Position numbers and translations under genes: made by a program
The notes under the pieces: generated by a model
The model's input: only the letters and a program-made list of their open reading frames with translations
The model's database searches: none
Told to the model about the DNA's origin: nothing
Part shown: in pieces, positions 3,278-45,268 of the stretch
Layout of the letters: the number at the start of each line of letters is the position of its first letter
Numbering within the stretch: the first letter of the stretch is position 1
Assembly: GCA_019192445.1 (NCBI GenBank)
Contig: JAHCMK010000003.1
Coordinates: 186,001-250,000 of the forward strand
From: Oceanococcus sp. HetDA_MAG_MS8
GTDB lineage: Bacteria; Pseudomonadota; Gammaproteobacteria; Nevskiales; Oceanococcaceae
Direction of reading: 5' to 3'
Length of the DNA stretch: 64,000 bases

Positions 3278-3841
3278 GAGTGGCGCTGTGCCGATCACCT
3301 GGTCTTTGCTGGTGGCCCTTGGCTGCCTACCCTGTTTCCGGAGTTGCTTGGTCGCTGGCTGAAGGTCACCCGACAAGAGGTGGCCTATTTCGGTACACCC
3401 AGTGGCAACCATGGCTACGACCATGGGCATTTACCACCGTGGGCGGAATTCGGTGAAGACGTGGTCTACGGTATCCCTGGCAACGAATATCGCGGCTTCA
3501 AAATCGCGGAAGATGTGCACGGCCCTGCCTTCGACCCAAGTCATGATGAACGCCAGATCCGGGCGTCCACCATTGATCGTCTTCGCCAGCACCTTGGTCG
3601 CCGCTTCCCGGCTTTAGCGGCTGCCCCGCTTCTGGAGTCACGCGTGTGCCAGTACAGCGTGACTCCAGACAACAACTTTCTCATTGACCAGCATCCTGAG
3701 GCGCGTAATGTCTTGCTGCTCGGCGGTGGCTCGGGGCATGGCTTCAAGCACGGCCCAGCACTCGGCGAGTACGTTTCTGGTTTGCTCGTGAGCCATACTG
3801 CGGCAGACACGCGCTTTGCGCTGGCTCGCTCCCTGACGTGA
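3278..3841 (+). pseudogene. C-terminal remnant of a DAO/MSOX-type FAD-dependent oxidoreductase
   Basis: The open frame (about 188 codons) begins directly after an in-frame stop at 3275-3277. Its first readable part, VFAGGPWLPTLFP then VTRQEVAYFGTP, matches the middle of monomeric sarcosine oxidase-like enzymes. Near the C-terminus LGGGSGHGFKHGPALGEYV is the conserved FAD/substrate region of that family. Intact members are about 370-390 residues and start with a GxGxxG Rossmann motif, which is absent here in any frame, so the N-terminal half has been lost. It cannot bind FAD normally. It lies between a MITE and a convergent glycosidase gene, a decayed junction. Confidence 0.75.
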
Positions 3842-3904: not shown

Positions 3905-6226
3905 TCATTCGCTGCGCAGCTCCGCCGGCACCGTAAATGGCCGAGTCCCGCAGCGGAAGTAGTAGGGCAGGAAGCCAAGGGGCGCTGCGACGTCCTTGTA
4001 GCCAGGGCCTTGATGGACTGTGTCAGTTTCTGGATGACGCCAGCAGCCGTCGGGGAAGTAGACTCGATGTTCTATGACCCCGGGCTCGTAGACCGGCGCC
4101 ACAAGGACATTCGGTCCAAGCATCCACTGCTGCTCTTGAATGACGGCTTCGGGATCATCCGGGAACATAAGCCACAGCGGCCGCATGATGGGCATGCCTG
4201 TCGCAACCCCCTCGGCCCATAACTCCATAATCAGCGGCTGGGCAGCAACATGTCGCTGTACGCTACGCAGGTATTCGCTTACTGCCTCATCGTCGTAGCG
4301 CCACGGCATGTGGGTGCCGTTGACTGGCCCACCATGCAGGCGATGGACCGGGGTCAAGGAGGCGTGATGACTCCATCGGATCAGCAGCTCCTTGCTAATC
4401 CGCCCCAAAGTGTCGATATAGCCACCGATCTCGCTGACCACCCCATAAGCCCCGCCAATGGATCGATTCAGCATGTCTGGTGCGACCGCACCGAGGCCGG
4501 AGGCGCGACTCCAGTCTGCGGTGTTATCGCCGGTCCATGTGGCACTCTCGTGCCGAGCGGAACCCGACGAGCCGAAGCGCACAAAGAACCACGGCTCCCG
4601 CTCGGGGTTCAGAGCGACATATTGGTCCAGAAGGTCGCGAGTGGCCTTGTGATAGAGCACGGCGCTGGCGTTGTGCATCTCGATGCCGGTCCGCCCGTCA
4701 GCGAACACCATGTCCACAAAGATTTGTTCGCCGAAATCCTGCATCCAACCCTCGAAGCCCAGATCTAATGCTTCGCGAATTCGGCTCTGCCACCAGTCCA
4801 CGGCGGCGGGGTTGGTGAAGTCAATTACCGCTGCCTGGTTTTGTGCATTGAGTGTGGACCCGATGATGAAGGGGCTGCCGAACAGGTTCATCGCGACAAA
4901 GCCGTTATGAACCGCTTCTTCAAAGGCCTGATGATCTTCGTATTCAGCATCGGCATTGTCGACAAAGCCCTTGAAATAACCCAGCGGGCGAATATTGCGG
5001 GCCTTGAGGCGAGCGATGGTGTTCTGTAGTTCGTTGCGCTCCTGAAGGCCAATCCACCCTTCAATGGAGAAGGCGGTGATTGGAAGATTCAGCTGCTCAA
5101 TCTTGTCCAGCGATTCGTTAATCTTTGCCAAGTAACTTTGCGGCGTTTCGGAGTTGATCTGAATGGTTTCCGAAAGCATGGGCCCCAGAGCCCAGCGTGG
5201 TGGCAGACGATGCCGGCCGGTCAGCTCGGTGATGCTGGAAATGGCTTTGGGGGCCTCTCCAGGCGCGACGACCAGATCTATGGCTCCGCCTGCGACTTCG
5301 ACCATCCAGGCATCAGGTCTGTCGCTGGCCATGCGCCAATGCGAGAAGGACGCTTGTTCTAGCCATAAGCCGTAGTTATTGGAGGAGATGAACTGCGACT
5401 GAACATAGTAGGCACCCTGCGGGCCTGTCGGAAACTGAAAATTGGGTTCGAACAGTGGCGGTAGTGCGGGGCCGGCGGCTTGCTCGGGGGTTTGCGAGAA
5501 GCCTTCGGCCCAATTGATGAAGTCCTGGCCGCGCTGATCGAGTGCATTTCGGCGCCCGCCAAACCCGTGGAAACGTTCCTCCGGGGTGGAGGCGAAAGAG
5601 GCACTAGTGAGCACCACTTCATGACCTGCGGGCGCCAGTCGCACCGACACTCTGAAGGTGCCCGCAGTATGGCCGGTTACCGTGACGGCAGCACTGCGAC
5701 CGGAGGGGTCGCTGCTGCTGACCATGAGGCGAACGCCGTTGTCGATCGTTTCGACGGACATGACATCCTCTAAGCGATACTCCACACCCATCTCGGCAGC
5801 TGCCAGCATGTTCCCGGTCCAAAAACTGATAGGAAATTGGAGTTGCGTAGCAGTGCCAACGAGAAAGGTGATCGGCGCATAGAGTGGCGGCAGGTCAGGG
5901 TTGTCAATGCCGCCGGGAGCCCGGGGTAAGGCGGCGCGCAGGGTAAAGGGCAGTGCCGACTGTTGGGTGCTTTGAAGTACCGTGTCGCCCGCTGCTGTCT
6001 GCACCACAAAGCCCAAGGGGGCGCGGCGGATCAATAAGCGCCCGGCGCTGCTACGCAAGGTGATCAGATCCTCTCCGATCTCTACCTTCGTCGAGTTCCT
6101 CGACTGGGTCGGTGTGTTGGTGTCATCAATGCTCAGGCGCCCACCCTGCGCATTGCAGCCGGTGATGATCGCCAGAGCAAACAGTGGAAGCGCACGGCGG
6201 AACAGCGAGGTGACACGAAATTTCAT
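3905..6226 (-). CDS. GH31 family glycosidase, lipoprotein (DFGE subgroup)
   Basis: A 773-residue alpha-glycosidase of clan GH-D. It starts with a lipoprotein signal (cysteine 24 in AIITGC), so it is exported. A GFGGR-type N-terminal loop lies near residues 221-225. The nucleophile Asp497 is in GWMQDFGEQ and the probable acid/base Asp567 in TWTGDNTADW. The DFGE form occurs in the GH31 branch that includes sulfoquinovosidases, but the sulfonate-binding pattern of YihQ is not obvious, so the substrate is left open. The ATG at 6226 is chosen because of the signal peptide; the frame is open 435 bp further upstream but that part reads as noise. It is the last gene of a minus-strand GH92-tetR-GH31 series. 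Confidence 0.88.
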   Translation of the reverse strand: MKFRVTSLFRRALPLFALAIITGCNAQGGRLSIDDTNTPTQSRNSTKVEIGEDLITLRSSAGRLLIRRAPLGFVVQTAAGDTVLQSTQQSALPFTLRAALPRAPGGIDNPDLPPLYAPITFLVGTATQLQFPISFWTGNMLAAAEMGVEYRLEDVMSVETIDNGVRLMVSSSDPSGRSAAVTVTGHTAGTFRVSVRLAPAGHEVVLTSASFASTPEERFHGFGGRRNALDQRGQDFINWAEGFSQTPEQAAGPALPPLFEPNFQFPTGPQGAYYVQSQFISSNNYGLWLEQASFSHWRMASDRPDAWMVEVAGGAIDLVVAPGEAPKAISSITELTGRHRLPPRWALGPMLSETIQINSETPQSYLAKINESLDKIEQLNLPITAFSIEGWIGLQERNELQNTIARLKARNIRPLGYFKGFVDNADAEYEDHQAFEEAVHNGFVAMNLFGSPFIIGSTLNAQNQAAVIDFTNPAAVDWWQSRIREALDLGFEGWMQDFGEQIFVDMVFADGRTGIEMHNASAVLYHKATRDLLDQYVALNPEREPWFFVRFGSSGSARHESATWTGDNTADWSRASGLGAVAPDMLNRSIGGAYGVVSEIGGYIDTLGRISKELLIRWSHHASLTPVHRLHGGPVNGTHMPWRYDDEAVSEYLRSVQRHVAAQPLIMELWAEGVATGMPIMRPLWLMFPDDPEAVIQEQQWMLGPNVLVAPVYEPGVIEHRVYFPDGCWRHPETDTVHQGPGYKDVAAPLGFLPYYFRCGTRPFTVPAELRSE

Positions 6227-6350
6227 GAAATGGTCAGGTGAGGTTGGCGGCAGACTTGGAGGTCGGCATCGATAACGCTGTCCAGTTGGTCGGTGACCAT
6301 CGTGTCGCTGCATCGCAGCGAATCTTGAAGGGGTTGGTTGTAGCCGAGCA

Positions 6351-7001
6351 TCATGCGGCTTTCCGGCTTGGGTCTGCCTTCGTCGCCGTGGCGGTGACCA
6401 ACAAACCTGCAAAGTGGCAGCGCACGAAACGCTCTGTACTCTGGCGAACATCCCGCCTGCCGCCTGGGTCAGCCACAACATAGTCCAGCATGCGAATGTT
6501 GACCTGCTCGACGACATCCAGCGCCGCTGCTTCCAAGTTGGCCAGTGGCAGTCGCGCAAAAACCGGCGTATGCGCCAATGACCGTGCCAGATCACGCGCC
6601 AGCCCCTGCTGCAGCTTCTGCATGGCTCGACGCAATGTAGTCGAAGCCCCGTAGCGCTCACGAGCGCAAACTACGAAAGCGTTTTCATGCCGCCGAACCA
6701 GCCGGAAATAAGCCCGCAGTGACAGACGGCTGACCTGACTGATGTCCTCAAGCTCATCCCAGGCCTCCGTCAGCGCTACTCGCAGCACCCTGTCGACTGA
6801 GTGAATGACCTCTTGTCCGAGGCTGTCCATATCTGCGAAATGGCGGTAGAAGGCTCCGGGGCTGAGATCGGCTGCGCGAGTGAGTTCGCGTACGCCGATA
6901 TCGGCAAAACTGCGCTTGATTGCGGCCAGTTCCAATGCGGCGTTGATGAGCCGATCGCGGCCGGAAATCTCCTCGTCGAAGCCATGCTTAGCGGTGTTCA
7001 T
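6351..7001 (-). CDS. TetR-family regulator, FabR-like
   Basis: A 216-residue transcriptional repressor. The helix-turn-helix (RELTRAADLSPGAFYRHFADMDSLG, about residues 38-62) closely resembles FabR-type TetR proteins, and a conserved VCARERYG stretch follows in the ligand domain. FabR senses acyl-CoA/acyl-ACP; whether this one does is unknown. A perfect inverted repeat lies just upstream (7030-7051), so autoregulation is likely. The gene sits between a GH92 gene (upstream) and a GH31 gene (downstream), all on the same strand, and may control both. The predicted -10 box is so close to the ATG that the mRNA may be leaderless. Confidence 0.88.
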   Translation of the reverse strand: MNTAKHGFDEEISGRDRLINAALELAAIKRSFADIGVRELTRAADLSPGAFYRHFADMDSLGQEVIHSVDRVLRVALTEAWDELEDISQVSRLSLRAYFRLVRRHENAFVVCARERYGASTTLRRAMQKLQQGLARDLARSLAHTPVFARLPLANLEAAALDVVEQVNIRMLDYVVADPGGRRDVRQSTERFVRCHFAGLLVTATATKADPSRKAA

Positions 7002-7007
7002 GGGATT

Positions 7008-7051
7008 AGTGTAAACGCCTGTCTACGAGGGTGTAAACAAACGTTTACACC
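7008..7051 (-). promoter_or_regulatory. Palindromic operator and promoter of the FabR-like tetR gene
   Basis: A 22-bp site at 7030-7051 has perfect 9-bp arms (GGTGTAAAC, spacer AAAC, GTTTACACC). A further half-site GTGTAAAC is at 7009-7016. On the minus strand TTTACA (7037-7032) and TACACT (7013-7008) are separated by 18 bp, a good sigma70 promoter overlapped by the palindrome, so bound repressor would block RNA polymerase. The palindrome overlaps the last codon and stop of the upstream GH92 gene. Confidence 0.75.
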
Positions 7052-9375
7052 GTGCAGCCGAATCTCTCTAGAGGGTCAGTACTGATCGACGCCGGTGGTT
7101 GGGTGAACTGGGATGCAGGTAGCGGCGCGGTGTCTAGCTGCAGCCTGCTGGGACCGCGTGGAAGCACTAGGGCGGGGGCGTCCAGGGCTCGGTTGTTCAA
7201 GCTGGCGGCATTGACATAACCATCGTCCCCGCGCTCGATCCGCAGGGTGCCGCCGGGGCGCACCACTGTCGCGCTGGCGAACTCGGGAGCACCCAGCGTG
7301 AAGTAGGGCAGGCCGGGGTTGATGGGGTACAGCCCCAGCATGGTCCATACCAGCCAGCCGGACAGCGCACCCAGGTCGTCATTGCCCGGCAGCCCCGCGG
7401 GTGTGTCGGTATAGATGCCGGCGGCGGCGCGCGCTGCCACCTGGGTTTTCCAGGGCTGGCGAATGTAGTTGTAGACATAGGGCGCTTGCAGGTCGTGCTC
7501 ATTGCCGGGCGCGAACTGGTTGCCGAAGTAAAACACACCGAAGAAGGTGATCTGGTTCTGGATCGTCGGCCATAGCAACGGCACCAAGTTCAGCGGAAAG
7601 CCGAAAAACTGATCCAGCCGCTGGTCGACCGCCGCCGGGCCGCCCATGCCGGCGACCAAGCCAGCGTAATCGTGCATGGTCAGCCAGGAATACTGCCAGG
7701 ACGTGCCCTCCTGAAAACCGTAGCCGGACTCCGGCAAAAAGGGAGTGATCCAGTCGCCTTGGTCATCCCGCGGCCGGATCCAGCCACTGTCGGGGTCCTG
7801 CAAGTGGCGGTAGCGCAGCGCGTCTTCCAGCAGCGTATCGCGGGCGACTCTGTCCTCGCGGGTGGCCGCCATGGCGGCCAAGGCAAAATCCGCCAGGCCG
7901 AATTCCAGCGTGGTGCCGGCGTTGCGCGAGCCACCCTCCACCAAGTCGATTGGACTGCCCGGCTGTGGCACGGGCCAATAGCCTTGGCTCACCTCCGGCG
8001 GGCGGGCCTCGATGGTGGCCTGCATCGCCCGCCAGGCCCGCTCAGCGTCCTCCGATGCCAGTAGCCCACGGCACCAGCCTTCGCCGATGAAGAAGATGGC
8101 GGGGTCGCCGGACATATAGCCCGGATTTCGGTTGGCCAACTGCCAGCGTGGCAGTTCCCCCGCGATCTCGGCGTATTCCACCAGCGACAACAGCATGTCA
8201 GTAAACCGGTCGGGGATGATTTCCGCCAGCAAGGCGCCATGGCCGCGATAGGTATCCCACAACGAGAACTGGGTATAGCGCGGCCGCTCGCGGTCCTGGC
8301 GCACTGTATCCTCAATGCGGTAGCGGCCATCGGCATCGCTGAGTAGGTTGGGGAACTTTAAGGTCCGGTAAAGCGCCGTGTAGAAACTGCGCAGCCTGTC
8401 TGTCCGTCCGCCGTCCACCTGAATGCGGTTGAGCTCGATATTCCACTGCTGCGTGGCGCGCTGGCGTTGGGCGTCGAAATCCCAGTCCGACATTTCCAGG
8501 TCGATGTTGCGCAGCGCTCCATCTTCGTCCACATAAGACAAACCCACTTTGATCTGCCAGCTTTCGGTGACTTGCGGGCGTAATACCACCAGCAGTTTGT
8601 CGCCCTCCAGGCGCTCCCCTTCCGGCAAGGTATTGCCATCCGCATCTTCCAGTGTAAACGGGGTTTGCGCCCGCAAAGCAAAGTACACCCGGTGCTCCGG
8701 GCTTGGCGTCTGCACCCAGCCGGTGAGGGCCCCATCGGGCCTAAGGATCAGGCTGGATGGGTGATGACCCTTGAGGTCGCGGCTGGGTTCCAGCACCAGG
8801 CCTGGAGGCTGGCCTACATAGTCCCAGATGTAGCGGTGCAAGGCCACCCGGGGGCTGGCCGTCACCTCGGCCACCACGCCATAACGCAGCAGCCGCACCC
8901 GGTAATAGCCGGGCTCGGCTACTTCTGTGGCGTTCTCAAAGGGCGAGGCGTAGAGCGGTAGGGGCGAGGGGTAGCCTAAGTCGCTGAGATCCTGGGTTTG
9001 GGGGTTGCCGCGAATGGGCAATACCGGAACCTGGCCCCCCTGAAATACGCCGGCTGACATATGAATATGTGACAGCCCGGTGAGCAGGGCGTTGACGAAG
9101 TAGTAGCCGCCGTAATTCAGCGGCCCTTCGGTATCGGGGCCGACACTGACCAAGCCATGGGGCACGCTGGCGCCGGGGTTGGTGAAGCCCGGCGGCAGAC
9201 TGCCAATGCGGGGGTCGACATAGCCCACCAAATTGCGAGGCTCGGTCGGGCTTGCCTCGAGGGCAGGCGCCCTAAGATCTCGCGCAGGCACTGCTTCGCC
9301 TGCGGGCTGACCGCCCTGGCAGGCCTGCAGCCCGGCAAGCAGGCCCAGTAGCCAAAGTCGCAAATCCCTGGTCAT
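7045..9375 (-). CDS. GH92 alpha-mannosidase-family lipoprotein
   Basis: A 776-residue exo-acting alpha-mannosidase of family GH92 (Ca2+-dependent, inverting). The lipoprotein signal has its cysteine at residue 19 (GLQAC). Family motifs in order: YVDPRIGS, GFTNPGASVPHGLVSVGPD, SHIHMSAG, DTYRGHGALLAEIIP, GYMSGDP, and GNDDLGALSGW followed by LGLYPINPG near the C-terminus. The ATG at 9375 has a good site (AAGGAG, 7 nt away); a TTG 21 bp upstream is less likely. Characterised members cut alpha-1,2/1,3/1,4/1,6-mannosides; the linkage here is not predictable. It is followed by tetR and GH31 genes, suggesting a shared alpha-glycan or glycoconjugate substrate. Confidence 0.9.
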   Translation of the reverse strand: MTRDLRLWLLGLLAGLQACQGGQPAGEAVPARDLRAPALEASPTEPRNLVGYVDPRIGSLPPGFTNPGASVPHGLVSVGPDTEGPLNYGGYYFVNALLTGLSHIHMSAGVFQGGQVPVLPIRGNPQTQDLSDLGYPSPLPLYASPFENATEVAEPGYYRVRLLRYGVVAEVTASPRVALHRYIWDYVGQPPGLVLEPSRDLKGHHPSSLILRPDGALTGWVQTPSPEHRVYFALRAQTPFTLEDADGNTLPEGERLEGDKLLVVLRPQVTESWQIKVGLSYVDEDGALRNIDLEMSDWDFDAQRQRATQQWNIELNRIQVDGGRTDRLRSFYTALYRTLKFPNLLSDADGRYRIEDTVRQDRERPRYTQFSLWDTYRGHGALLAEIIPDRFTDMLLSLVEYAEIAGELPRWQLANRNPGYMSGDPAIFFIGEGWCRGLLASEDAERAWRAMQATIEARPPEVSQGYWPVPQPGSPIDLVEGGSRNAGTTLEFGLADFALAAMAATREDRVARDTLLEDALRYRHLQDPDSGWIRPRDDQGDWITPFLPESGYGFQEGTSWQYSWLTMHDYAGLVAGMGGPAAVDQRLDQFFGFPLNLVPLLWPTIQNQITFFGVFYFGNQFAPGNEHDLQAPYVYNYIRQPWKTQVAARAAAGIYTDTPAGLPGNDDLGALSGWLVWTMLGLYPINPGLPYFTLGAPEFASATVVRPGGTLRIERGDDGYVNAASLNNRALDAPALVLPRGPSRLQLDTAPLPASQFTQPPASISTDPLERFGCTV

Positions 9376-9586
9376 CGGTGTCTCCTTCACGGCCAAGCTT
9401 AGCGCTCCGATCGAGGGCTGGCTACATCTGTGAATGACCTACGCATACATTGAGTCGAAGACTTTAAGCTCTACTTCTCGAATTGCAAAAATCCAGTGGT
9501 CGAGCACTGCCGCGGGAGCAGCGGTGGGGGTCGTAATTTCAAGAAGGGCAAGCTGGGGCATCGGCCCGTTGTCGATAAGTGGTGTT

Positions 9587-11644
9587 TTAAAGGGTCTTCA
9601 AATACTCAATAAGAGCCCGCCGCTCGGCATCGCTGAGCACGCTGGTAAAGGCATGGCCCTGATTGCCCTGGCTGTACAGGGTGGTGTTGTAGACCTTCCG
9701 GTTCTCCACGTCCTCATTGGTCATGCTGAGCTGATCCAGGCGGGGGACATTCCAGCTCAGCCCCACTTCGTCATACAGCACCGAGAGCAGGCGCTGGATG
9801 GTGGAGGATTCGCCGGGGTTGACCGGGTTGCAGTTCAACAGGGGTTGGGTGCCGGGGTCGCCACATTCCAGCTCTTCGTATTTCCAGCCCAGCTTGTCCT
9901 GGTCGTAGGCGCGGTGCAGATCGGTGTCAAAGCCCATGACGACGCGCCCCTGCTGATCGGGTCGAGCTGGCTTGGAGACGCGCTTCCAATAGGTGGGGCG
10001 CTCGTTGTCGGGGTCGAGAACGCCCCAGATGTTGGGCACCATGCCGTTGTGGAAGTAGGGGGCGGAAGCCCAGATCCCCCAGAGCGGCGGTGCCAGCATG
10101 ATGGGGGTGTTGTCCGGCGTTTCGCCGGCTGCACCCACGCCGCAGTAGGCCAGAGCATGGCCGGTGAGTGAAGAGTCCAGGCTGCCGTCCGGGTTACGCA
10201 CGTCTTGCCAGCCTTCGGCGTACTTGGGATCCGTGCCGATGATCGACATGGGCTGGGCGTTGGCGGCGTAGCCCAGCAGTTCCGGGGTGTCGAGAAAATC
10301 CGGGTTATGCGCGTAATGGGGTGAGTACACCCCATGACAGCTCGCACAGGAGCCATTGCCACCTTCCGGCCGTGGCACCGGGTTGTTCAGGTTCTCCGCC
10401 CACAAATCTTTGGCATGGAAGAGGATTGCGCCCTGGCGGGCGAGGTTGTCGTCAATAGGCAGCGGATAGCGCGGCGAGGGCGGGCTTTCGGCCCAGGCAT
10501 GGAAAGGTTGGGCGTGGGCATCAATCCATTCCAGCACTTCTTCCTCGCCGCCGGTCAGCCCCTTCTGCAAGTCGTAGTAGGCGGCCAGATCGATGCGCAC
10601 CGCGTCGGTGGGAAAGATGGCGCCATGAAATTTTTGCGGCCTGTAGGCCAGGTTCCACCACGGCGGGCTTTTGATGTTGCCAATGGCCTGACTGAAAACG
10701 ATTTTCTCGTTGAGCAGCAGATTGGGGTCGCCCCCGCTGAACACAATGTAGAAAAGTTGCAAAAAGTCGATGGCGCCGGTGCCCCGGTTGGTCGACACGT
10801 TAATCGCTCCGGCGGCACCGTCTGAGGTCGCCAGTCCGGCCAGCCCCTGGGCGCGGCGGAAGTCAGATGCGGCCACCGTAAAGTCACCGATGGAGCCGGC
10901 TCCGCCCAATTGCACGCCCATGCCGGGGCCGTCTGCGGGGGTTCCCAATTCGCCGCTGTGACAGAACACGCAGAACTTGCGCCCAATTTCGCCGGTCCAG
11001 CGTCCATCCGGGCTGCGAATTTGCGTGTAGCCCAAGGGCAATTGCCCGGAGCCGCCATCGGTGGCGTTGGGGTCCTCACCCGGCAAGGGATAGGGATTCC
11101 GCCAGGGAGTCATGGGCGTGCCGTGGCGCTCAGCGACGAGTTCATCGAAGTTGTCGGGGCGTGCCTCCAGGCCCCAGATCTCCCACAGGCGGTTGTAGGC
11201 CTCGGCGGGTAACCCCTGTGGCTGATCCTGACCGCCGGCGAAGGTGACCGGCGTCCCAATTTCGCCCTGGCCCATGCCAATGAAGCGCCCCAGTGCAATT
11301 TGCTCACGCCATTCGCCGCAGGTGGTGGGCCGCTCCACGCCGTTGTCGCATCCGCGCCAGTAGGCGTTGAAGACCACTGCCTTGCCGGCATTCACGCCGG
11401 GAACGATGAGCTCGCGCGGATCGCGGGGTAGCGTGGCGCTGTCCGGCTGATCGGCGCAGAAATTCGCCCAGAGGTTCCCGCCACGGGCTTCGCTCAGCAG
11501 CAGGGGGTGGGGGCTTTCGCCATCGCGGCTGGCCACCGGCGCCACCGAGGTCGCATCGCGCCCCCCATTGCAGGCCACCAAGACAGCGCCCAAGGCGCAG
11601 GCGAAAACCGGCCGCGTCAGGCCGGACCAGTGCGTACGAATCAT
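9587..11644 (-). CDS. RoxA/RoxB-like diheme c-type cytochrome oxygenase, lipoprotein
   Basis: A 685-residue exported diheme protein. It has two heme c motifs, CVFCH (225-229) and CASCH (433-437), about 208 residues apart. It also has the cytochrome c peroxidase/MauG-type stretch PPLWGIWASAPYFHNG (519-534) and a Trp pair at 329-330 between the hemes. Overall length, heme spacing and the C-terminal HAFTSVLSDAERRALIEYL resemble rubber oxygenases RoxA/RoxB, which cleave poly(cis-1,4-isoprene). The start at 11644 has a strong site (GGAGG) and begins a lipoprotein signal (cysteine 25, VLVAC), whereas known Rox enzymes are secreted. The substrate here is not proven. A tetR gene is divergently transcribed from it. 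Confidence 0.8.
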   Translation of the reverse strand: MIRTHWSGLTRPVFACALGAVLVACNGGRDATSVAPVASRDGESPHPLLLSEARGGNLWANFCADQPDSATLPRDPRELIVPGVNAGKAVVFNAYWRGCDNGVERPTTCGEWREQIALGRFIGMGQGEIGTPVTFAGGQDQPQGLPAEAYNRLWEIWGLEARPDNFDELVAERHGTPMTPWRNPYPLPGEDPNATDGGSGQLPLGYTQIRSPDGRWTGEIGRKFCVFCHSGELGTPADGPGMGVQLGGAGSIGDFTVAASDFRRAQGLAGLATSDGAAGAINVSTNRGTGAIDFLQLFYIVFSGGDPNLLLNEKIVFSQAIGNIKSPPWWNLAYRPQKFHGAIFPTDAVRIDLAAYYDLQKGLTGGEEEVLEWIDAHAQPFHAWAESPPSPRYPLPIDDNLARQGAILFHAKDLWAENLNNPVPRPEGGNGSCASCHGVYSPHYAHNPDFLDTPELLGYAANAQPMSIIGTDPKYAEGWQDVRNPDGSLDSSLTGHALAYCGVGAAGETPDNTPIMLAPPLWGIWASAPYFHNGMVPNIWGVLDPDNERPTYWKRVSKPARPDQQGRVVMGFDTDLHRAYDQDKLGWKYEELECGDPGTQPLLNCNPVNPGESSTIQRLLSVLYDEVGLSWNVPRLDQLSMTNEDVENRKVYNTTLYSQGNQGHAFTSVLSDAERRALIEYLKTL

Positions 11645-11684
11645 GAATTGTCTCCTCCCCGCGCGAGCTTGCGGCACACGCTGG

Positions 11685-11735
11685 TGTTCAGACTGTACAA
11701 ATGTTCAGTTCGCGGAATAATGAACTCTTGTTCAT
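11685..11735. promoter_or_regulatory. Putative TetR operator region between oxygenase and tetR
   Basis: The 119-bp divergent spacer contains an inverted repeat ATGAAC-TCTT-GTTCAT (11720-11735). Two further TGTTCAG half-sites lie at 11685-11691 and 11702-11708. Spaced GTTCA/TGAAC motifs between a diheme oxygenase and a tetR gene suggest one regulator controls both promoters. No confident -35/-10 pair was assigned. Confidence 0.6.
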
Positions 11736-11763
11736 TTTTCTGTCAAGACCTAAGCTCTGGACC

Positions 11764-12441
11764 ATGACAACACCTCTGGACGATTCTGCGGTTGCCCGGC
11801 ACCCCACGCAGGCCCGATCGCGCAAGCGCTTCGCCGAGATTCTGCAAGGGGCCGAGCGGCTGCTGGCCGACAAAGGCCTGAGCGGCTTTTCCATACCGGC
11901 GCTGGCGCAGGAGTTGGGTCTGTCACGACGCAGTATTTACTTCTTCTTTCCCACGCCTTATGCGCTGTTGAACGAAGTCACCCGCCGGCATATCGGGGCC
12001 CTGGAAGCGCATCTGGCCGGTAGGCTGCAAGAGCTGGCCGGGCAGAATGTGGTGAACATAGGTGTGCAGTTGGTGGCAGCGGCGGCGGCTTTTCACAACA
12101 GCCAGCCGGTGGCGCGTTTGTTGATCCTGGGCGGAGCGGTCACCGATCACAGTTACCGCATTCAGGAGCAGAACATCCTGCACTTGGGAGAATTGGCCGG
12201 CCGCATCATGCGAAATTTTGGGGCACGTTTCCCCAAGGCTCCACCCGATGTGCCCACCATAGCGGTAGAGCTGGGCGCCTCCTGTTTTCGCCATTCCTAT
12301 TACCAGCACGGCGAAATCATGGAGGCCTATGTGGTGGAGGCGGCTTATGTCATGGCCTTGTACCTACACGAGGCGCTTGGTCTGACGGCCGTACTCACCC
12401 GGAAGCAGATTCGCGAGGTTTTGGCTTCAGCCGCGCCCTGA
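11764..12441 (+). CDS. TetR-family transcriptional regulator
   Basis: A 225-residue TetR protein with its HTH near residues 33-56 (FSIPALAQELGLSRRSIYFFFPT), then an all-helical ligand domain of unknown specificity. It is divergent from the diheme oxygenase gene and shares a short spacer rich in GTTCA/TGAAC half-sites, so that oxygenase is the likely target. The ATG at 11764 is preferred to one at 11701, since the earlier one would place the operator inside the coding region and adds an unrelated N-terminus. The ligand may be a product of the oxygenase reaction; that is inference. Confidence 0.85.
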   Translation: MTTPLDDSAVARHPTQARSRKRFAEILQGAERLLADKGLSGFSIPALAQELGLSRRSIYFFFPTPYALLNEVTRRHIGALEAHLAGRLQELAGQNVVNIGVQLVAAAAAFHNSQPVARLLILGGAVTDHSYRIQEQNILHLGELAGRIMRNFGARFPKAPPDVPTIAVELGASCFRHSYYQHGEIMEAYVVEAAYVMALYLHEALGLTAVLTRKQIREVLASAAP

Positions 12442-12460
12442 GTCAGATTGGCTCGCCGGC

Positions 12461-13141
12461 TCAGGGCGCATCCACCCAGCCTGATACGCCCAGCTCTCGA
12501 CCCATACCACCGAAAATTCTTTGCACACCCTCGACCAGCTCTTCCATAGGTTGCTGGCAATCGTTGACGAGCCAAGCCTGACAGAGGTGAATGATGGCAC
12601 CGACGGCTCCGCGTGCCATCACCGCCAGGACGGTGTCGCTGGGTGCGTCCTTGCCTAAAAAGGGCTTGGTGAAGTTCACCAGCAATTCCACGAAGGCGCC
12701 GTAGCTTTTGCCATACACACGGCCGAGCTGGCTGCGAACCGAGGTGGCTTCAATCATGATCAACCGGGCCTTGTGCGGCTGGCTGCGAACAAAGCGAAAG
12801 ACCTCTGCGACTCCGGAATGCACCAAGGCGCGCGAATCAGATAAGTGGGGCGAGGCGGCCTTCATTAGGGCATCCATCAAATCCTGCGTGGCGACGCGGT
12901 AGGTTTCAGTGAGTAGGTCTTCGCTGCTGGCAAAGGACTCATAAAAGTAGCGCTTGGTCAGCCCGGCTTGTGCGCAGAGGGCGTCGATGCTGGTGTTTGC
13001 AAAGCCGTCACGCCCGAAAAGAGTCATTCCGGCCTGTACCAGCTTGCGTCGCCGCTCTGCTTGCCGGGTTTTGGCATCTTTGCCCGCGTATTTACGGCGG
13101 ACGGATGGCGTGGTGGTCGCAGGGGCGGCTGGCGTTCTCAT
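12461..13141 (-). CDS. TetR-family transcriptional regulator
   Basis: A 226-residue TetR protein. A basic N-terminal arm (VRRKYAGKDAKTRQAERRRK) precedes the HTH (SIDALCAQAGLTKRYFYESFAS). It is divergent from the SGNH esterase-GH31-SGNH esterase series, with two matching GACAC-N6-GTGTC palindromes in the 149-bp spacer. The start at 13141 has a GGAG site 6 nt away; the longer frame from 13171 would run through the operator. Its C-terminal end lies 19 bp from the end of the convergent tetR gene. It probably represses itself and the esterase/glycosidase genes. Confidence 0.86.
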   Translation of the reverse strand: MRTPAAPATTTPSVRRKYAGKDAKTRQAERRRKLVQAGMTLFGRDGFANTSIDALCAQAGLTKRYFYESFASSEDLLTETYRVATQDLMDALMKAASPHLSDSRALVHSGVAEVFRFVRSQPHKARLIMIEATSVRSQLGRVYGKSYGAFVELLVNFTKPFLGKDAPSDTVLAVMARGAVGAIIHLCQAWLVNDCQQPMEELVEGVQRIFGGMGRELGVSGWVDAP

Positions 13142-13163
13142 CAATGCTCCATGCAGCAAATCA

Positions 13164-13211
13164 TTTGACACGTTGTCGTGTCAAACATAACAATAGACAC
13201 CGGGTCGTGTC
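13164..13211. promoter_or_regulatory. Tandem TetR operators, GACAC-N6-GTGTC
   Basis: Site 1 (13164-13185) is a 22-bp inverted repeat with perfect 9-bp arms (TTTGACACG, TTGT, CGTGTCAAA). Site 2 (13196-13211) has the same core, GACAC-CGGGTC-GTGTC. Centres are 29 bp apart. Both lie between the divergent tetR and SGNH esterase genes and probably control both directions. Confidence 0.78.
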
Positions 13212-13290
13212 ACTTGGCTTGGCTGCATAGCAGCGCAGGTGGCGTTGTGTTTCGGCCCCAATCCATGAATGGCGCACCGAGGAGATCATT

Positions 13291-14700
13291 GTGCCTACAT
13301 TCCTGACTCCATCCCCGAGTGGCTGCTCACCGCTTCTACGAGCCGCCGTGCTGGCTGGCTTATTGGCAGCACTCAGCGCTTGTGGTGAGGGTGAGCAGGC
13401 CAATGTTGTTCAGCAAGATGAGGCGCAGTTCTCAAGTGCCGAGCAATGTGAGGGGCTGGATCCGTCAAAGGCCGAGGTGCATTGGGTGACCAGCTGGCGC
13501 ACGGCCCCCACCGACGCACTGATCACACACCCCATAAGCGGATTGTCGGTGCGGCAGTCTCTGGCGCCTCATCGTAGCGGTCAACAACTACGCCTGAGAT
13601 TATCGAATCGCTATTCCAATCTGCCGGTCACGTTGGATCAGGTGCATATCGCCAAAGAGGCTCAGCGCGGCGGCGCGGCGATGGTTCCTGGCAGCGAGTG
13701 CCTGCTGCTTTTTGCGGGCCAGACGCGGGTGACCATTCCGGCCGGGGCCATGGTGGTGTCAGATGCTATTCACTATCCTTTGCAGGCCTTTGAGCGCGTA
13801 GGTATCAGCTTTTTCGCGCCCACGCTCACCCCGCAATTCACCCGGCACCTGAATGCGGCCGAGTTTTTATACATGAGCCTGCCGGGTGACCATGCGGCCG
13901 ACCCCAGTGGGGCCGCCTATATCCAGGTGCCCGATAGCTACGCCAGTAATTTTGTGCTGATAGAAGCGCTGGAAGTACTCGCGCCCCAGAATGTCCGCAC
14001 CATTGTTGCGGTGGGCGACTCGATCACCGATGGCTCCGCCTCGACGACGGTCTTGCTGGACGGTGGGGTCAACCCCATGACTGGCACCGACCAGCGCTAT
14101 CCCAACCATTTACAACGGCGTATTGATGCAGCAGGTCTGCCGCTGACGGTGGCCAATGCCGGTATCGGCGGCAATGAACTCTTAAGCGATGCTTGGCTAC
14201 CCCAGTTTGGGCGCAGCTTGTTGGACCGGCTCGACTACGACGTTTTTGGCGTGACTGGCGCCAGCCATGTGCTGGCCATGATTGGCACCAATGACTTTGG
14301 CAACCCCAAAGCTGGCGGCATGCCCAGTGCTGAAGACCTGATTGCCGGGCTGCAAGAGCTCATTCGGCGCACGCAGGATGCCGGCCTGAAGATTGTGTTG
14401 GGCACCATCCCCCCCGCTGAGGGAACGGTCATCGAGGGCTTGCCCATTATCGGGGACTTGCCGCTGGGCATCAGCGTGCTGCACGGAACGGCGCAGGCGC
14501 GCGCTAGCAGGAATGCCGTGAACGCCTGGATTCGCGAGCAAGACCTGAGCGACGGCATCGTCGATTTCGATACCTGCCTGGAAGACCCCCAACGCCCAGG
14601 TTACTTGGCGCCCGAATACAACAGCGGCGACAACCTCCATCCCAGTCCAGCCGGCTATGCCGCCATGGCCGACTGCGTAGACCTGAACCTCTTTCTGTAA
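13291..14700 (+). CDS. SGNH/GDSL hydrolase, lipoprotein
   Basis: A 469-residue exported esterase with a lipoprotein signal (cysteine 31, AALSAC). A beta-sandwich-like N-terminal part (VTSWRTAPTD, then LRLRLSNRYSNLPVTL) precedes the SGNH domain. Block I is VGDSITDG with Ser244, block III GIGGNE, block V-like GTNDF, and the Asp/His pair is in DNLHPSPAGY (Asp447, His450). All catalytic residues are present. The GTG start at 13291 has the site GAGGAG. Related proteins deacylate sugars or lipids; the acyl group here is unknown. First gene of a set with GH31 (36 bp downstream) and a second SGNH protein. Confidence 0.87.
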   Translation: MPTFLTPSPSGCSPLLRAAVLAGLLAALSACGEGEQANVVQQDEAQFSSAEQCEGLDPSKAEVHWVTSWRTAPTDALITHPISGLSVRQSLAPHRSGQQLRLRLSNRYSNLPVTLDQVHIAKEAQRGGAAMVPGSECLLLFAGQTRVTIPAGAMVVSDAIHYPLQAFERVGISFFAPTLTPQFTRHLNAAEFLYMSLPGDHAADPSGAAYIQVPDSYASNFVLIEALEVLAPQNVRTIVAVGDSITDGSASTTVLLDGGVNPMTGTDQRYPNHLQRRIDAAGLPLTVANAGIGGNELLSDAWLPQFGRSLLDRLDYDVFGVTGASHVLAMIGTNDFGNPKAGGMPSAEDLIAGLQELIRRTQDAGLKIVLGTIPPAEGTVIEGLPIIGDLPLGISVLHGTAQARASRNAVNAWIREQDLSDGIVDFDTCLEDPQRPGYLAPEYNSGDNLHPSPAGYAAMADCVDLNLFL

Positions 14701-14736
14701 CGCCCCCGGGCTTTGTTCATCCGAATGGCCATTCTC

Positions 14737-17199
14737 ATGACTGATTTTTCTCCCGCCCTGGTCCTTAAGCTGGCCCGTTCTCTGGCTGTGTTGGCCCTGC
14801 TTGCATTGACGGCCTGCAACGGTGGCCGTGATACACAGTCTCTCCCCGGTCTGAGTGGCAACGGCGTGGTGAAACAGGACCAAGCCCGCTTCACCGTGAT
14901 TACCCCTACCTTGATTCGCATGGAATACGCCGAAGATGGGCAATTCGAGGATCGGCCCACCCAAACGGTGGCACAGCGGCCCCAGCCGCAGGCAGCCTTT
15001 ACCCAGAAGGTGGGGCAGGGCTGGTTGATTGTGGAAACCGCCAAGCTGCGCCTGCGCTACGAATTGGACTCCGGCCCTTTTGGCGCCGACAACCTCATCA
15101 TCGAGGTGCAAAAGGGCGACGAGATCGTCGAGGCCCGGCCGGATTGGTCCTTTGCGCCGCAGCCCGGCAACCTCGGTGGTTGGCGTCGGGGCCTGGACAA
15201 CGAACGCGACCCCCAGCCCCTGTATGAGGGCGTGCTCAGCCGGGCGGGTTGGTATTTGATGAACGACAGCAATACCGTGCTGCTCACCGATACCCCACCT
15301 CATTTCGAAGCTCGCCCCGCGAGCAACGGCAGCTACCAGGATGGCTACCTCTTTGGCTATGGCCTGGACTTGGAGCAGGGTTTGAAAGATCTACGCACCC
15401 TCACCGGTGCTGCGCCATTGCTGCCCAAAAAAGCCCTGGGGGTGTGGTTCTCGCGTTGGTGGGCTTATACCGACCCGGAATGGAGAGATCAGGTGCGTGA
15501 GTTTCAAGAACGTGGCGTATCGCTAGATACCATTTCCATCGACACCGACTGGAAGCTGATGCACCGGCAGCTAGGCTGCGTGGTGTGGAATGCCGTCATT
15601 CAGGCCCCGCTCAACGATGCCTGCTCCTGGAATGGTTGGGACTGGAACCGCGACATTTTCCCGGACCCCGATGGCTTTGTGGCTTGGCTGCATGAGCAGG
15701 GCATTGATGTGGGCCTGAATGTGCACCCCTCCATTGCCGGCTCCGACCCGGCCTACCCCGGCGTGGTGGCCCAAACCGGGCCCTTGATGCGCGACGATGC
15801 CGACTTGCCCTGCAGCATTTTGCAGGCCGACCCCTCCACGCCTTGCTACATCTTCGACTGGACCCAGGCCAGCCATTACGAGGCCTACTTTGGCCTGCAT
15901 GAGCCCATTGAAGAAACTGGCATCGATTTTTGGTGGATGGACTGGTGCTGCGAAGGCTCCAGCGCCATTGCTCCGGGCCTGAGCGCCGACACTCTGATCA
16001 ACCAGGGCTACTACGAGCAACACCAGGATATGGGCTCGCGCTGGCCGGCCTTCTCGCGCATTGGCGGCTCTTTCCAGAATGGCAAGGGTGGGCAGGACAA
16101 CAACGGCTTGGGCGCCTTCGCAGAACACCGCTACAGCCTGCACTTCACGGGCGATACCTGCTCCACCTGGGAGCTGATGAAGTTCCAGGCGGACATGACC
16201 GCCAGCGAAGGCAACATCGGCCTGCCCTATGTGAGTCACGACATCGGCAGCTTCCTGGGTGAACCACAAGGCAGCGCCGATTGCAGCAATCTTCTCAATC
16301 TCAGTCCACGCCTGCCGGAGGACATGTATGTGCGCTGGATGCAGTTCGGCACCTTCGAGCCCATCATGCGCCTGCATTCCCACCATGGTGATCGCCTGCC
16401 TTGGGAGTACCCCGGCCAGGCCGAAACCATTGCTACCGCATTCTTGAAGCTTCGCGGCCGCCTGGTGCCCACCCTGTACACCCTGAGCCGCGTGGCCCAT
16501 GACACCGGCCTGCCCATGGCGCGATCGATGTATTTGCAATGGCCTGAGATTGAAGCGGCCTACAACTACCGCAGTCAGTACACCGTGGGTGACCACATGC
16601 TGGTGGCCTCGGTGGCTGCGCCCGGCGACCCGGCCACCATCAACATGTGGGTGCCGCCAGGGGAGTGGGTGGACTTTTTCAGCGGCGAAGTTCTCAGCGG
16701 CCCGGCAGAAATCAGCCGCAGCGTACCGCTGGAGCATTACGCCGTGTTTATGCGCAAGGGCGCTATTTTGCCCTTGCAGCCAGAACTGCTCACCAGTGCT
16801 TATGGCCCCCAAGACAATCTCAGTCTGCGGGTATGGCCAGGGGATGATGGCCAGTTTGATCTGTATGAAGACGAAGGCCGCGGCTTTGCCTACCGAGACG
16901 GGGCTTACCAATGGACACCGCTACGGCTGGAGTCGGATGCCGGCTGCGCCACGCTGCGCATCGAAGCGGCCCAGGGCCAAAACTTCCCGGGCGCGCTGAC
17001 CAGTCGCAGCTGGCAGGTGGAATTCATGGCAACCGACGCTCCGCAGAGTGTGCTGTTGAACGGCCAAGCCATCAGCAGCGGTGCGGGTGTGCCGGGCTGG
17101 AACTATGACGCCAGCAGCCGCACGGTAAGCGTGAGCACCGGCAGCCAGCCTTCCAATCAGGCCACTACGGTGGCGCTGGATAGCGGCGGCTGTTCCTAA
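14737..17199 (+). CDS. GH31 family glycosidase, lipoprotein
   Basis: An 820-residue alpha-glycosidase with a lipoprotein signal (cysteine 27, LLALTAC). GVWFSRWWAYTD (about 235-246) is the start of the catalytic barrel. The predicted nucleophile is Asp402 in FWWMDWCCEG, and the acid/base is probably Asp473 in HFTGDTCSTW. The motif WMDW differs from the DFGE form of the GH31 at 3.9 kb, so the two belong to different GH31 branches and probably cut different linkages. Starts at 14725 and 14737 are both in frame, neither with a clear ribosome-binding site. It lies between two SGNH esterase genes, consistent with stepwise deacylation and glycoside cleavage. Confidence 0.87.
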   Translation: MTDFSPALVLKLARSLAVLALLALTACNGGRDTQSLPGLSGNGVVKQDQARFTVITPTLIRMEYAEDGQFEDRPTQTVAQRPQPQAAFTQKVGQGWLIVETAKLRLRYELDSGPFGADNLIIEVQKGDEIVEARPDWSFAPQPGNLGGWRRGLDNERDPQPLYEGVLSRAGWYLMNDSNTVLLTDTPPHFEARPASNGSYQDGYLFGYGLDLEQGLKDLRTLTGAAPLLPKKALGVWFSRWWAYTDPEWRDQVREFQERGVSLDTISIDTDWKLMHRQLGCVVWNAVIQAPLNDACSWNGWDWNRDIFPDPDGFVAWLHEQGIDVGLNVHPSIAGSDPAYPGVVAQTGPLMRDDADLPCSILQADPSTPCYIFDWTQASHYEAYFGLHEPIEETGIDFWWMDWCCEGSSAIAPGLSADTLINQGYYEQHQDMGSRWPAFSRIGGSFQNGKGGQDNNGLGAFAEHRYSLHFTGDTCSTWELMKFQADMTASEGNIGLPYVSHDIGSFLGEPQGSADCSNLLNLSPRLPEDMYVRWMQFGTFEPIMRLHSHHGDRLPWEYPGQAETIATAFLKLRGRLVPTLYTLSRVAHDTGLPMARSMYLQWPEIEAAYNYRSQYTVGDHMLVASVAAPGDPATINMWVPPGEWVDFFSGEVLSGPAEISRSVPLEHYAVFMRKGAILPLQPELLTSAYGPQDNLSLRVWPGDDGQFDLYEDEGRGFAYRDGAYQWTPLRLESDAGCATLRIEAAQGQNFPGALTSRSWQVEFMATDAPQSVLLNGQAISSGAGVPGWNYDASSRTVSVSTGSQPSNQATTVALDSGGCS

Positions 17200-17339
17200 C
17201 CATCTGCGGGCGGCCAGTCCAGAGTCTCGCCGCCTGCGCGACGCTGCCTGAGGCCATCAGGCCAAGGGCGTACTAAGTCCAGTTGCCAGCGTGGTCGCGG
17301 ACTCGGTGCCCGCCTGCGGCCAGAACAAGGAGGAGACCC

Positions 17340-18611
17340 ATGACAAAGCCCGGACTATGCGGCCTGGTGCTGGTGTGCGCCCTGCTGGGGTGCAGCGACA
17401 CTGCATTCGACGATGTCCGCGAGTTGACGACTGCCGAGGACCAGGCGCCACAATGGCTGGCGGCCTGGGGCACCACCCGCGAATCTGTAGATAGCTACGC
17501 TCTAGCCCCGCGCGAGACCACCGCGCGGAATATCGTGCGCTTGACGGTGGGGGGCGAAGCCCTGCGCATTCGCCTGTTCAATCTGGACCCCGCGCAACCC
17601 ATCACCATCGCGGCGGCCAGCGTGGGCATTCGCCAGCCCGGTACCCGGGCCGATATCCAACCCGACAGCTTGCGCCCGCTGAGTTTTGATGGCGGCGCGC
17701 CCGGCGTGGTGATTCCTCCCAACACCGCCTCGTATTACAGCGATCCGGTGAAATTGGCTGTATGTAGCCAAGACGACATTGCGGTGAATCTCTACATCCA
17801 GGGTGAGAACAACCCCCCTGAGTTCGGTACCTCCTGGAATGAGTCTTACAAACTGCCCAACCGCAGCGGTGACGGCACCGGGCAAAGCTCCGGCGAAAAC
17901 TTCCGTCTCATCGACGATACCCCGGCACAGTTTCCGCCCGGCTTTCCGGTGCGCTGCAATGGTTGCCGGCCTTATGCCTTGCGCGATGTGGAAGTGCTCA
18001 CCAAAGAGGCCAGTGGCGTGATGCTGTTTTTGGGCAGCTCCAGCCTGCATGGCATGAATACCTCACAAAACCAGTTCCTCCGGGTGACGGATGTGCTCGC
18101 CCTGCGCATGCGCGATGAAGTGCCGATGGGGCAGCGCCATAGCATCATCACTCGCGCCATCAGTGGCGATACCCTCGGCGAGGCCATGCGGAACCGGCTG
18201 GATATCGATGTGTGGCCAACGCCCGGCCTGCAATCCTTGGTGGTGTGGGTCACTAACGACCTCACCGACGACCCCGCCGATGTGGTCATCGACCGCTACC
18301 AAACCTTGTTGGCCGAGGCCCATAGCCGGGGGGTGAAAGTGTTTTGCCCCACCTGGCTACCCGGTGCCAACTCCCTCCAAGCCAGCCTGAACGGTGAGCG
18401 TGCCAAGCTCAACGATTGGATATTGAGTAGCGGGGCCTGCGACGGCGTGGTGGATTGGAATGCCCAAATCGAAGCGCCCGGCGGGCTCACTATGCTGCCC
18501 CAATACAACAGCGGCGACTTCATTCACAGCAATGATGCTGGCCATGCCGCCTGGGCGGCCGTAACTCCGCTGCAACAATGGTTGGGCGGGCAAAGCCCCG
18601 GCTCGCGCTGA
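17340..18611 (+). CDS. SGNH-like esterase lipoprotein with altered block I
   Basis: A 423-residue exported protein sharing the N-terminal module of the upstream SGNH enzyme (QWLAAWGTTRES, then IRLFNLDPAQPITI). The lipoprotein cysteine is residue 18 (ALLGCS). Block I reads LGSSSLHG (232-238) instead of GDSxxDG, so the Asp before the usual nucleophile is replaced by Ser. VTND and the Asp393/His396 pair in DFIHSNDAGH are kept, so a serine-based mechanism is still possible. A strong site (AAGGAGGAG) supports the ATG at 17340, although the frame is open further upstream. It follows the GH31 gene by 140 bp. Confidence 0.78.
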   Translation: MTKPGLCGLVLVCALLGCSDTAFDDVRELTTAEDQAPQWLAAWGTTRESVDSYALAPRETTARNIVRLTVGGEALRIRLFNLDPAQPITIAAASVGIRQPGTRADIQPDSLRPLSFDGGAPGVVIPPNTASYYSDPVKLAVCSQDDIAVNLYIQGENNPPEFGTSWNESYKLPNRSGDGTGQSSGENFRLIDDTPAQFPPGFPVRCNGCRPYALRDVEVLTKEASGVMLFLGSSSLHGMNTSQNQFLRVTDVLALRMRDEVPMGQRHSIITRAISGDTLGEAMRNRLDIDVWPTPGLQSLVVWVTNDLTDDPADVVIDRYQTLLAEAHSRGVKVFCPTWLPGANSLQASLNGERAKLNDWILSSGACDGVVDWNAQIEAPGGLTMLPQYNSGDFIHSNDAGHAAWAAVTPLQQWLGGQSPGSR

Positions 18612-19743: not shown

Positions 19744-20343
19744 ATGAAAACCACCCCGAATGCAGGCTTGAATTTTGCGGCCACGATACTGGCTGCGACC
19801 GCCCTGGCCGCCTGTAGTAGTAACCCCAAGAACACCAGCGTGTCGGCAGAGCCCGCGCCCACGCCAAACCCGGCGGCGCAAAGCTCCCAGCAGGGTTTTG
19901 CTTTGCAGGAGCGGGAGCGCCTGGAGGCGCAGCAGCAGGAAGCGCGAGATGCGGCGGCCGACCAGCGTGTGGTGTATTTCGAGTTTGATCGTGCCACCCT
20001 TTCGCCTGAAGCGCGGCAACGGGTCGCAGCCCACGCCCGCTATTTGCTGACGGACCCTGAGCTACGCCTTCGCTTGGAAGGGCATGCCGATGAGCGGGGT
20101 ACCCGCGAGTACAACATGGCCCTGGGCGAGCGACGTGCCAAGGTCATCGAACAGGCTCTACGCTTGCAGGGTGTTGCCCCTGCGCAGATTGCCGTAGTGA
20201 GCTACGGCGAAGAGAAACCGGTGGTCGTTGGCGCTGACGATGAACAGTCTTATGCGGCGAATCGGCGCGTGGAGTTCAACTTTTTAAGCGGTGAGCTGGC
20301 AGATCTGCCAGCGCCGGATCCGGTCCTCACCTCAGTACGGTAA
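19744..20343 (+). CDS. OmpA/Pal-like peptidoglycan-associated lipoprotein
   Basis: A 199-residue lipoprotein (cysteine 24 in ALAACSS) with a Pro/Ala/Gln-rich linker, a short coiled stretch ([18 protein letters not shown]) and a C-terminal OmpA domain. [36 protein letters not shown] and NRRVEFN are the peptidoglycan-binding signatures, including the Asp and Arg that hold diaminopimelate. It resembles Pal, but no tol genes are nearby, so it is probably a paralogue that tethers the outer membrane. The start has a strong site (AGGAGGACAGT-ATG). Confidence 0.85.
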
Positions 20344-44649: not shown

Positions 44650-45268
44650 CCTCATATCTCCAAGTGGGGAAGCGCTAAAGACTAGCATTACTGGATGACG
44701 GCTCCTTGTCGCCGCGAATGGGGCTCAGGCTCATAGGCAAGTTGGAGCGAGCGACCTTAATGGAGAGGCTGGTGCTAGGAAGCGTCTGCTGGCCCTGCCT
44801 GCGCCTGTGTCCCCCGCGCCGCTTCGCGGTCCCCTGCGGGGCATGCTGTTCTGGGGGTCGTCTCGACGCAACGTCCTGTTGCGGCGAGACTCAATCCGGC
44901 GTCCTGCCGGATTGTCCCCCGCCACAGCACACCCCTCCGGCGCTTCCTCCTTAACCAGGCGCAGGCAGGACCAGCAGACGCAGCCCCACGCTCCTGCTTC
45001 GCGTTCCGCTCGCATCTTCCGATGCACGCTCGGGCCGTGGGCGTGACGCTCCACCGGGGCCGCAATTGGCTGTAGCGCCGGAGGCACCAGTCGCGACTGT
45101 GGTCAATCGGCCATGGACGGCCGATTGAGGCTTGCCGCGACAGGAAGTCGCGTCAAGCCGGCCACACCAAGCGGCTGGTACCGGAGGGGACCGCGCAGCG
45201 GCGCGAAGGACAGCGGACCCGGTGGAGCATCACGCGCAGAGGTGTCGACGTTCACCAACTTGGCTTGG
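44650..45268. repeat. Palindrome-dense spacer (nested inverted repeats)
   Basis: A 600-bp non-coding stretch packed with inverted repeats. 44782-44807 pairs with 44956-44981 (25 of 26 bases, 148 bp apart). GTCTCG-CGCAAC pairs with GTTGCG-CGAGAC near 44860-44890. AATCCGGC pairs with GCCGGATT near 44895-44915. CAATCGGCC (45104-45112) pairs with GGCCGATTG (45119-45127). CTTG-CGCGAC pairs with GTCGCG-CAAG near 45131-45157. A copy of CCGCGCCGCTTCGCGGTCCC (about 44816) returns in inverted form near 45187. No frame here looks coding. It may be a mosaic of REP/BIME-like units. Confidence 0.65.

Follow-up and report, generated by a model that had tools for sequence, protein, structure and literature searches.

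The window analyzed here is a stretch of 64,000 nucleotides from Oceanococcus sp. HetDA_MAG_MS8, whose positions 3905 to 18611 encode six predicted exported enzymes interleaved with three TetR-type regulators (Table 1). The enzymes are two GH31 proteins (GH31a and GH31b), a GH92 protein, a Rox-type diheme protein, and two SGNH hydrolases (SGNH1 and SGNH2), and two of the six carry, at the lipobox cysteine, a short peptide tag that we write as C-[NQEDK]-G-G-R-[DE]. Domains were assigned by Pfam and NCBIfam searches of the proteins encoded in the stretch. Read from right to left, the minus strand contains Rox, GH92, TetR1, and GH31a; TetR2 diverges from Rox, and TetR3 diverges from the series SGNH1-GH31b-SGNH2. 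Each of the six enzymes has a signal peptide and a plausible lipobox (ITGC, LQAC, LVAC, LSAC, LTAC, and LLGC, with LQAC the weakest and LVAC that of Rox), which together with the domains confirms the initial annotation of six enzymes with lipoprotein signals in 15 kb. We likewise found no TonB receptor, SusCD pair, or sugar kinase among those open reading frames of the window that were scanned with Pfam, which were a part of the total, in support of its view that this is not a standard polysaccharide-utilization locus. A cluster with lipoprotein glycosidases is a feature shared with SusCD loci, but the scanned frames include no SusC-type TonB receptor or SusD, the regulators are TetR proteins instead of the typical sensors, and the units are not kept together.

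Table 1. Genes and palindromes between positions 3905 and 18611 of the window
Feature	Position	Strand	Evidence
GH31a lipoprotein, YihQ-like part of GH31, CNAQGGR from the cysteine	3905-6226	-	Pfam PF01055 and PF21365; nearest structure 5aed
TetR1, FabR-like regulator, same orientation as GH31a and upstream of it	6351-7001	-	Pfam and NCBIfam; 72% orthologue close to that of GH31a in the same genus (L077)
TetR1 operator region, degenerate site (7009-7026) and perfect palindrome with 9-bp arms (7030-7051)	7009-7051		Palindrome search; footprint kept in sister species
GH92 lipoprotein, alpha-mannosidase family, CQGGQ from the cysteine (orthologues CQGGRD or CQGGRG)	7045-9375	-	PF07971
Rox-type diheme lipoprotein, CNGGRD, two CXXCH, MauG motif PYFHNGMVP	9587-11644	-	Pfam and NCBIfam; alignment of key residues
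Palindrome between the divergent Rox and TetR2 genes	11719-11736		Palindrome search, shuffles
TetR2, family recurring beside Rox genes in relatives	11764-12441	+	Pfam; synteny
TetR3, divergent from SGNH1	12461-13141 (if the ATG start is used)	-	Pfam; 62% orthologue at the same position in L080
TetR3/SGNH1 palindrome	13164-13185		Shuffles; half-sites also in L080
SGNH1, GDSL-type hydrolase lipoprotein, CGEGEQ from the cysteine	13291-14700	+	PF13472 and PF00657; 68% orthologue in L080
GH31b lipoprotein with DUF5110, CNGGRD	14713-17199	+	PF01055, PF17137, and PF21365; nearest structure 7wj9
SGNH2, GDSL-type lipoprotein, CSDTA from the cysteine	17340-18611	+	PF13472

Each of the three TetR genes has one palindrome next to it, as had been noted. 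The site upstream of TetR1 (GGTGTAAAC-AAAC-GTTTACACC) was equaled in 2 of 1000 shuffles and that between TetR3 and SGNH1 (TTTGACACG-TTGT-CGTGTCAAA) in 6 of 1000; a chance origin is unlikely for both. The site between Rox and TetR2 (AATGAAC-TCTT-GTTCATT) was equaled in 46 of 1000 and is weak on its own, so that chance is only weakly disfavored there. The half-sites TTTGACAC and GTGTCA of the TetR3/SGNH1 region recur in L080, a genome of another family. The TetR1 palindrome does stand beside its regulator gene; the earlier picture needs correction in that it reaches into the 3′ end of GH92 and belongs to the TetR1-GH31a unit. A sister species keeps this main site and a second, degenerate half-operator at an unchanged distance from the start codon and next to a different flanking gene, which supports self-regulation of TetR1-GH31a. 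GH92 itself lacks a palindrome; Rox lies on the same strand across a gap of ∼210 bp, and its promoter could also drive GH92. The palindromes and the conservation of the TetR1 operators with TetR1 support local control by the TetR proteins, which would act as repressors.

The initial annotation had proposed that the genes form one system attacking a glycolipid or acylated glycoconjugate, and had named independent scattering of the genes in relatives as the outcome that would speak against it. We searched 30 to 60 related genomes for homologues of Rox, GH92, GH31a, and GH31b and found them scattered, on different contigs or far apart; no sampled genome has all units together. In the same-genus genome, GH92 lies on contig 46, whereas contig 40 carries TetR1 (72%) and GH31a (61-62%) at a short distance, separated by a GMC oxidoreductase, and that genome has no close Rox or GH31b. 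Rox and GH92 occupy separate contigs in Solimonas, and GH92 occurs alone in relatives, next to ceramidase-like genes. TetR2-type regulators recur beside Rox genes in many genomes and in several families, and Rox genes are often duplicated. The L080 genome retains TetR3-SGNH1-GH31b as a block (62, 68, and 71%); SGNH1-GH31b was found only with TetR3 and only there, and the other 368 of the 369 sampled genomes of the class contain no close relative of GH31b. The stretch is a set of several self-contained switch-plus-enzyme units, not one pathway, and a single conserved polysaccharide or glycolipid locus was rejected on synteny. We also rejected an inserted island with conserved borders: the cluster is not present at the M3 peptidase loci of relatives (the M3 peptidase being the left-flank gene), the genes next to it there show no match to the cluster or to the right flank, and no empty site was shown.

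We then turn to the tag. Rox and GH31b both start C-N-G-G-R-D, and other Rox proteins of the genome start C-N-G-G-R. Occurrences were counted by DNA pattern searches (C-[KNQEDH]-G-G-R-[DE], with the reversed pattern as control) and in individual stretches. The four genomes of the family gave 8, 8, 6, and 9 matches against 1, 0, 1, and 0 for the controls, and across the order (57 other genomes) and the remainder of the 369-genome class sample, counts were near the control level. The match fell exactly on the lipobox cysteine in 27 of 30 examined family cases, in proteins of usually 500-1000 residues, compared with none of 28 in the order's other families (Fisher p ∼ 1.6e-13, a value that overstates independence because of orthologous pairs) and one doubtful case among 29 class-wide. 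Omitting the final acidic residue from the pattern added further bearers, two Tat-like lipoproteins among them, and gave ∼14 bearers in this genome. The bearers are unrelated proteins: Rox, GH31, GH92, penicillin acylases, ceramidases, a purple-acid-type phosphatase, PhoD, S15, DUF3604, and esterases. In a sample of ∼484 kb (the window, its left flank, and an unbiased stretch of 400 kb), 4 of 11 predicted lipoproteins longer than 500 amino acids carried the tag, compared with none of 26 smaller ones (p 0.005), such as the OmpA-like protein at 19744.

Orthologues from outside the family lack the tag: GH31b starts CSDSDP, GH92 CGARSD or CGGSSD, GH31a CSRSES or CGQSNP, and Rox CGRSDT, CGGGDS, or others. 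The tag therefore follows the bacterial lineage and not the protein. Different genes encode the same peptide with different codons (TGCAATGGGGGGCGC, TGCAACGGTGGCCGT, and TGTAATGGCGGCCGA), G-G-R is constant behind a variable +2 residue, and the upstream signal peptides of the bearers differ. With the untagged outside orthologues, the varied codons, and the restriction to large lipoproteins in the ∼484-kb sample, the tag looks selected. Small CxGGRD lipoproteins (∼190 amino acids) do exist in L118 (1501-2073) and L165 (1501-2067), the latter with a thrombospondin type 3 repeat, and are an exception to the rule of large enzymes. In Solimonas-type genomes (L061, L067, L079, and L089), the same enzyme families often show C-x-R-S-(S/D), for example CAPSRSSPV, CSRSSPVSG, and CGARSD, which is perhaps the tag of another lineage.

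The diheme protein gave a full-length match to the NCBIfam model RoxB at 877 bits, under the curated cut-off of 900 that some relatives of the same clade pass, and 604 bits against RoxC (NF051462), where 900 is also required. Both CXXCH motifs and the MauG motif of the RoxB heme test are present. At the position of RoxA Phe-317 (F309 in RoxB) it has Ala, and at that of Trp-302 it has His, replacements common to its clade, which includes Solimonas and Spongiibacter. RoxC-type proteins are likewise lipoproteins with two c-heme motifs, the MauG motif, and neither Phe-317 nor Trp-302 kept, and after cleavage, RoxC of Oceanococcus atlanticus begins with C-N-G as well (PMC10837239). The window protein differs from RoxC in its clade, in being nearer to RoxB by score, and in having His rather than Phe at the Trp-302 position. 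Two lipoprotein RoxC proteins without Phe-317 and Trp-302, one of them from O. atlanticus, were reported in 2024 not to cleave rubber and to have no known function (PMC10837239). The protein, first described as a lipid- or polyisoprenoid-cleaving type of oxygenase, is related to Rox; the name rubber oxygenase should not be used, and the RoxB label was rejected on the replacement of Phe-317 by Ala. Elsewhere, two 20-kb stretches (L069 and L070) of one contig of genome G005 together carry six Rox paralogues, most with a third heme motif, accompanied by TetR2-type regulators and acyl-CoA ligase/dehydrogenase-like families.

For GH92, both Pfam domains scored above cut-off (PF07971, 375 bits, E 6.7e-112; PF17678, 130 bits), and the nearest solved structures are alpha-mannosidases. 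Its neighbors in L058 (3737-8905), L059 (5210-10381), and L061 (15204-19903) are large lipoproteins of two families that match Ceramidase_alk weakly, an adjacency seen in Oceanococcus-type and Solimonas genomes and hinting at a sphingolipid-type substrate for GH92 in those genomes. The best solved relative of GH31a is the YihQ sulfoquinovosidase (5aed, E 8.7e-53), with the nucleophile and acid/base Asp pair aligned. GH31a differs from YihQ in being a lipoprotein, and it does not match the Arg/Trp sulfonate-binding region (Arg-301/Trp-304 in YihQ) in a phmmer alignment that is itself poor there; the candidate assignment as a sulfoquinovosidase is unsupported. The nearest structure to GH31b is annotated as an alpha-xylosidase (E 6.7e-88), although the series to which this entry belongs may deal with an alpha-1,3-glucosidase.

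Together, these data point to a chance or recent neighborhood of three independent TetR cassettes and GH92, with the tag most likely a sorting or surface-display signal, a reading that we regard as probable. A TetR repressor would bind the palindrome at its own promoter and keep the exported lipoprotein enzyme or enzymes off until a small ligand, presumably derived from the substrate, entered the cell. The cassettes would be TetR1/GH31a; TetR2/Rox, perhaps with GH92 by read-through; and TetR3/SGNH1-GH31b, perhaps with SGNH2. One could instead see a dedicated system in which the six enzymes jointly break down one acylated glycolipid or glycoconjugate on the surface of the cell, given that the genes are contiguous, all enzymes are lipoproteins, and no unrelated genes lie in between. 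The Ceramidase_alk-like neighbors of GH92 and the GMC oxidoreductase beside GH31a in other genomes would also fit lipid-linked substrates, but for single modules, whose substrates may indeed be lipids or glycolipids. Against joint action stand the lack of any sampled relative with the units together, the individual TetR and operator of each unit, and the near absence of GH31b-SGNH1 from the class, and we consider it improbable. Another reading, in which Rox would be a working dioxygenase of rubber or polyisoprenoids and the stretch would belong to a set of genes degrading polyisoprene, is likewise improbable: the RoxB score, the heme and MauG motifs, and the position of relatives' Rox genes near families that by sequence are acyl-CoA ligases and dehydrogenases speak for it, but the replaced Phe-317 and Trp-302, the failure of comparable RoxC proteins to cleave rubber, and the lack of any connection of the other genes with polyisoprene speak against it.

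For the tag, we infer both surface localization and a signal role from the sequences: C-[NQEDK]-G-G-R on large extracytoplasmic lipoprotein enzymes would be read after lipidation as a sorting or surface-display signal. Alternatively, CxGGR could be no signal at all but a linker inherited with copied signal-peptide segments, or the result of drift in the flexible region behind the cysteine. Proteobacterial lipoproteins are often rich in Gly and Ser at this place, and relatives carry other types such as CGGG or CxRS. We nevertheless hold such an origin to be rather unlikely, because the signal peptides upstream differ between bearers, codons and the +2 residue vary while G-G-R stays, Tat-like lipoproteins share the tag, and small lipoproteins lack it. 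Several points weigh against a sorting signal. The exact tag is found on only two of the six cluster enzymes, CQGGQ of GH92 and CNAQGGR of GH31a are inexact, SGNH1 and SGNH2 have none, and one Rox protein of the same family (L072) starts CGGGQYSG. Furthermore, lipoproteins were assigned by a simple lipobox rule, with no trained predictor, and the analysis covered only four genomes of the family, two of them closely related, so that several matches are orthologous pairs.

Signals for surface lipoproteins are known mainly from Bacteroidota. The lipoprotein export signal (LES) of that phylum, C-X-K-(D/E)2, was recognized from a shared motif behind the cysteine and later proved by mutation (PMC5080379). 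The tag resembles it as a short motif at a fixed distance right after the +1 cysteine of many unrelated large lipoproteins, the LES likewise having lineage-specific versions. It differs in its residues, X-G-G-R-(D/E) with a mostly neutral X instead of Lys and an acidic pair, fits neither K-(D/E)2 nor Q-A-(D/E)2, and occurs in a gammaproteobacterial family. We tentatively suggest, as a possibility somewhat short of even, that the tag is a lineage-specific sorting signal of this one family, analogous to the LES, that directs large enzymes from both the Sec and Tat routes to the surface. Searching the literature for a lipoprotein motif CNGG gave nothing relevant, and searches on post-cysteine signals in Gammaproteobacteria and on Oceanococcus lipoproteins returned only a review on Rox. 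Seen as one system, the cluster would be ordinary; the shared tag is the point that matters, as it makes a post-cysteine surface code proper to Proteobacteria a testable idea. If true, it would offer a simple way to pick the surface enzymes of the family, including the lipoprotein Rox proteins of unknown function.

Finally, we noted several features outside the cluster. Window positions 3344-3841 encode an isolated C-terminal part of a DAO-type flavin adenine dinucleotide-dependent oxidoreductase (profile positions 248-351 of 353), likely a gene remnant. Beside the cluster, at 2829-2985, lies a repeat of ∼150 bp with inverted ends (CTAAGGAAGCGCTGAAT and ATTCAGTGCTTCCCTAAG) that is probably an element like the miniature inverted-repeat transposable elements; further copies, 78-86% identical, occur in the same genome (L083 1550-1701, L083 19727-19865, and L076 12680-12816). 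A TwoAYGGAY RNA at 45104-45161 scored above the Rfam gathering threshold.

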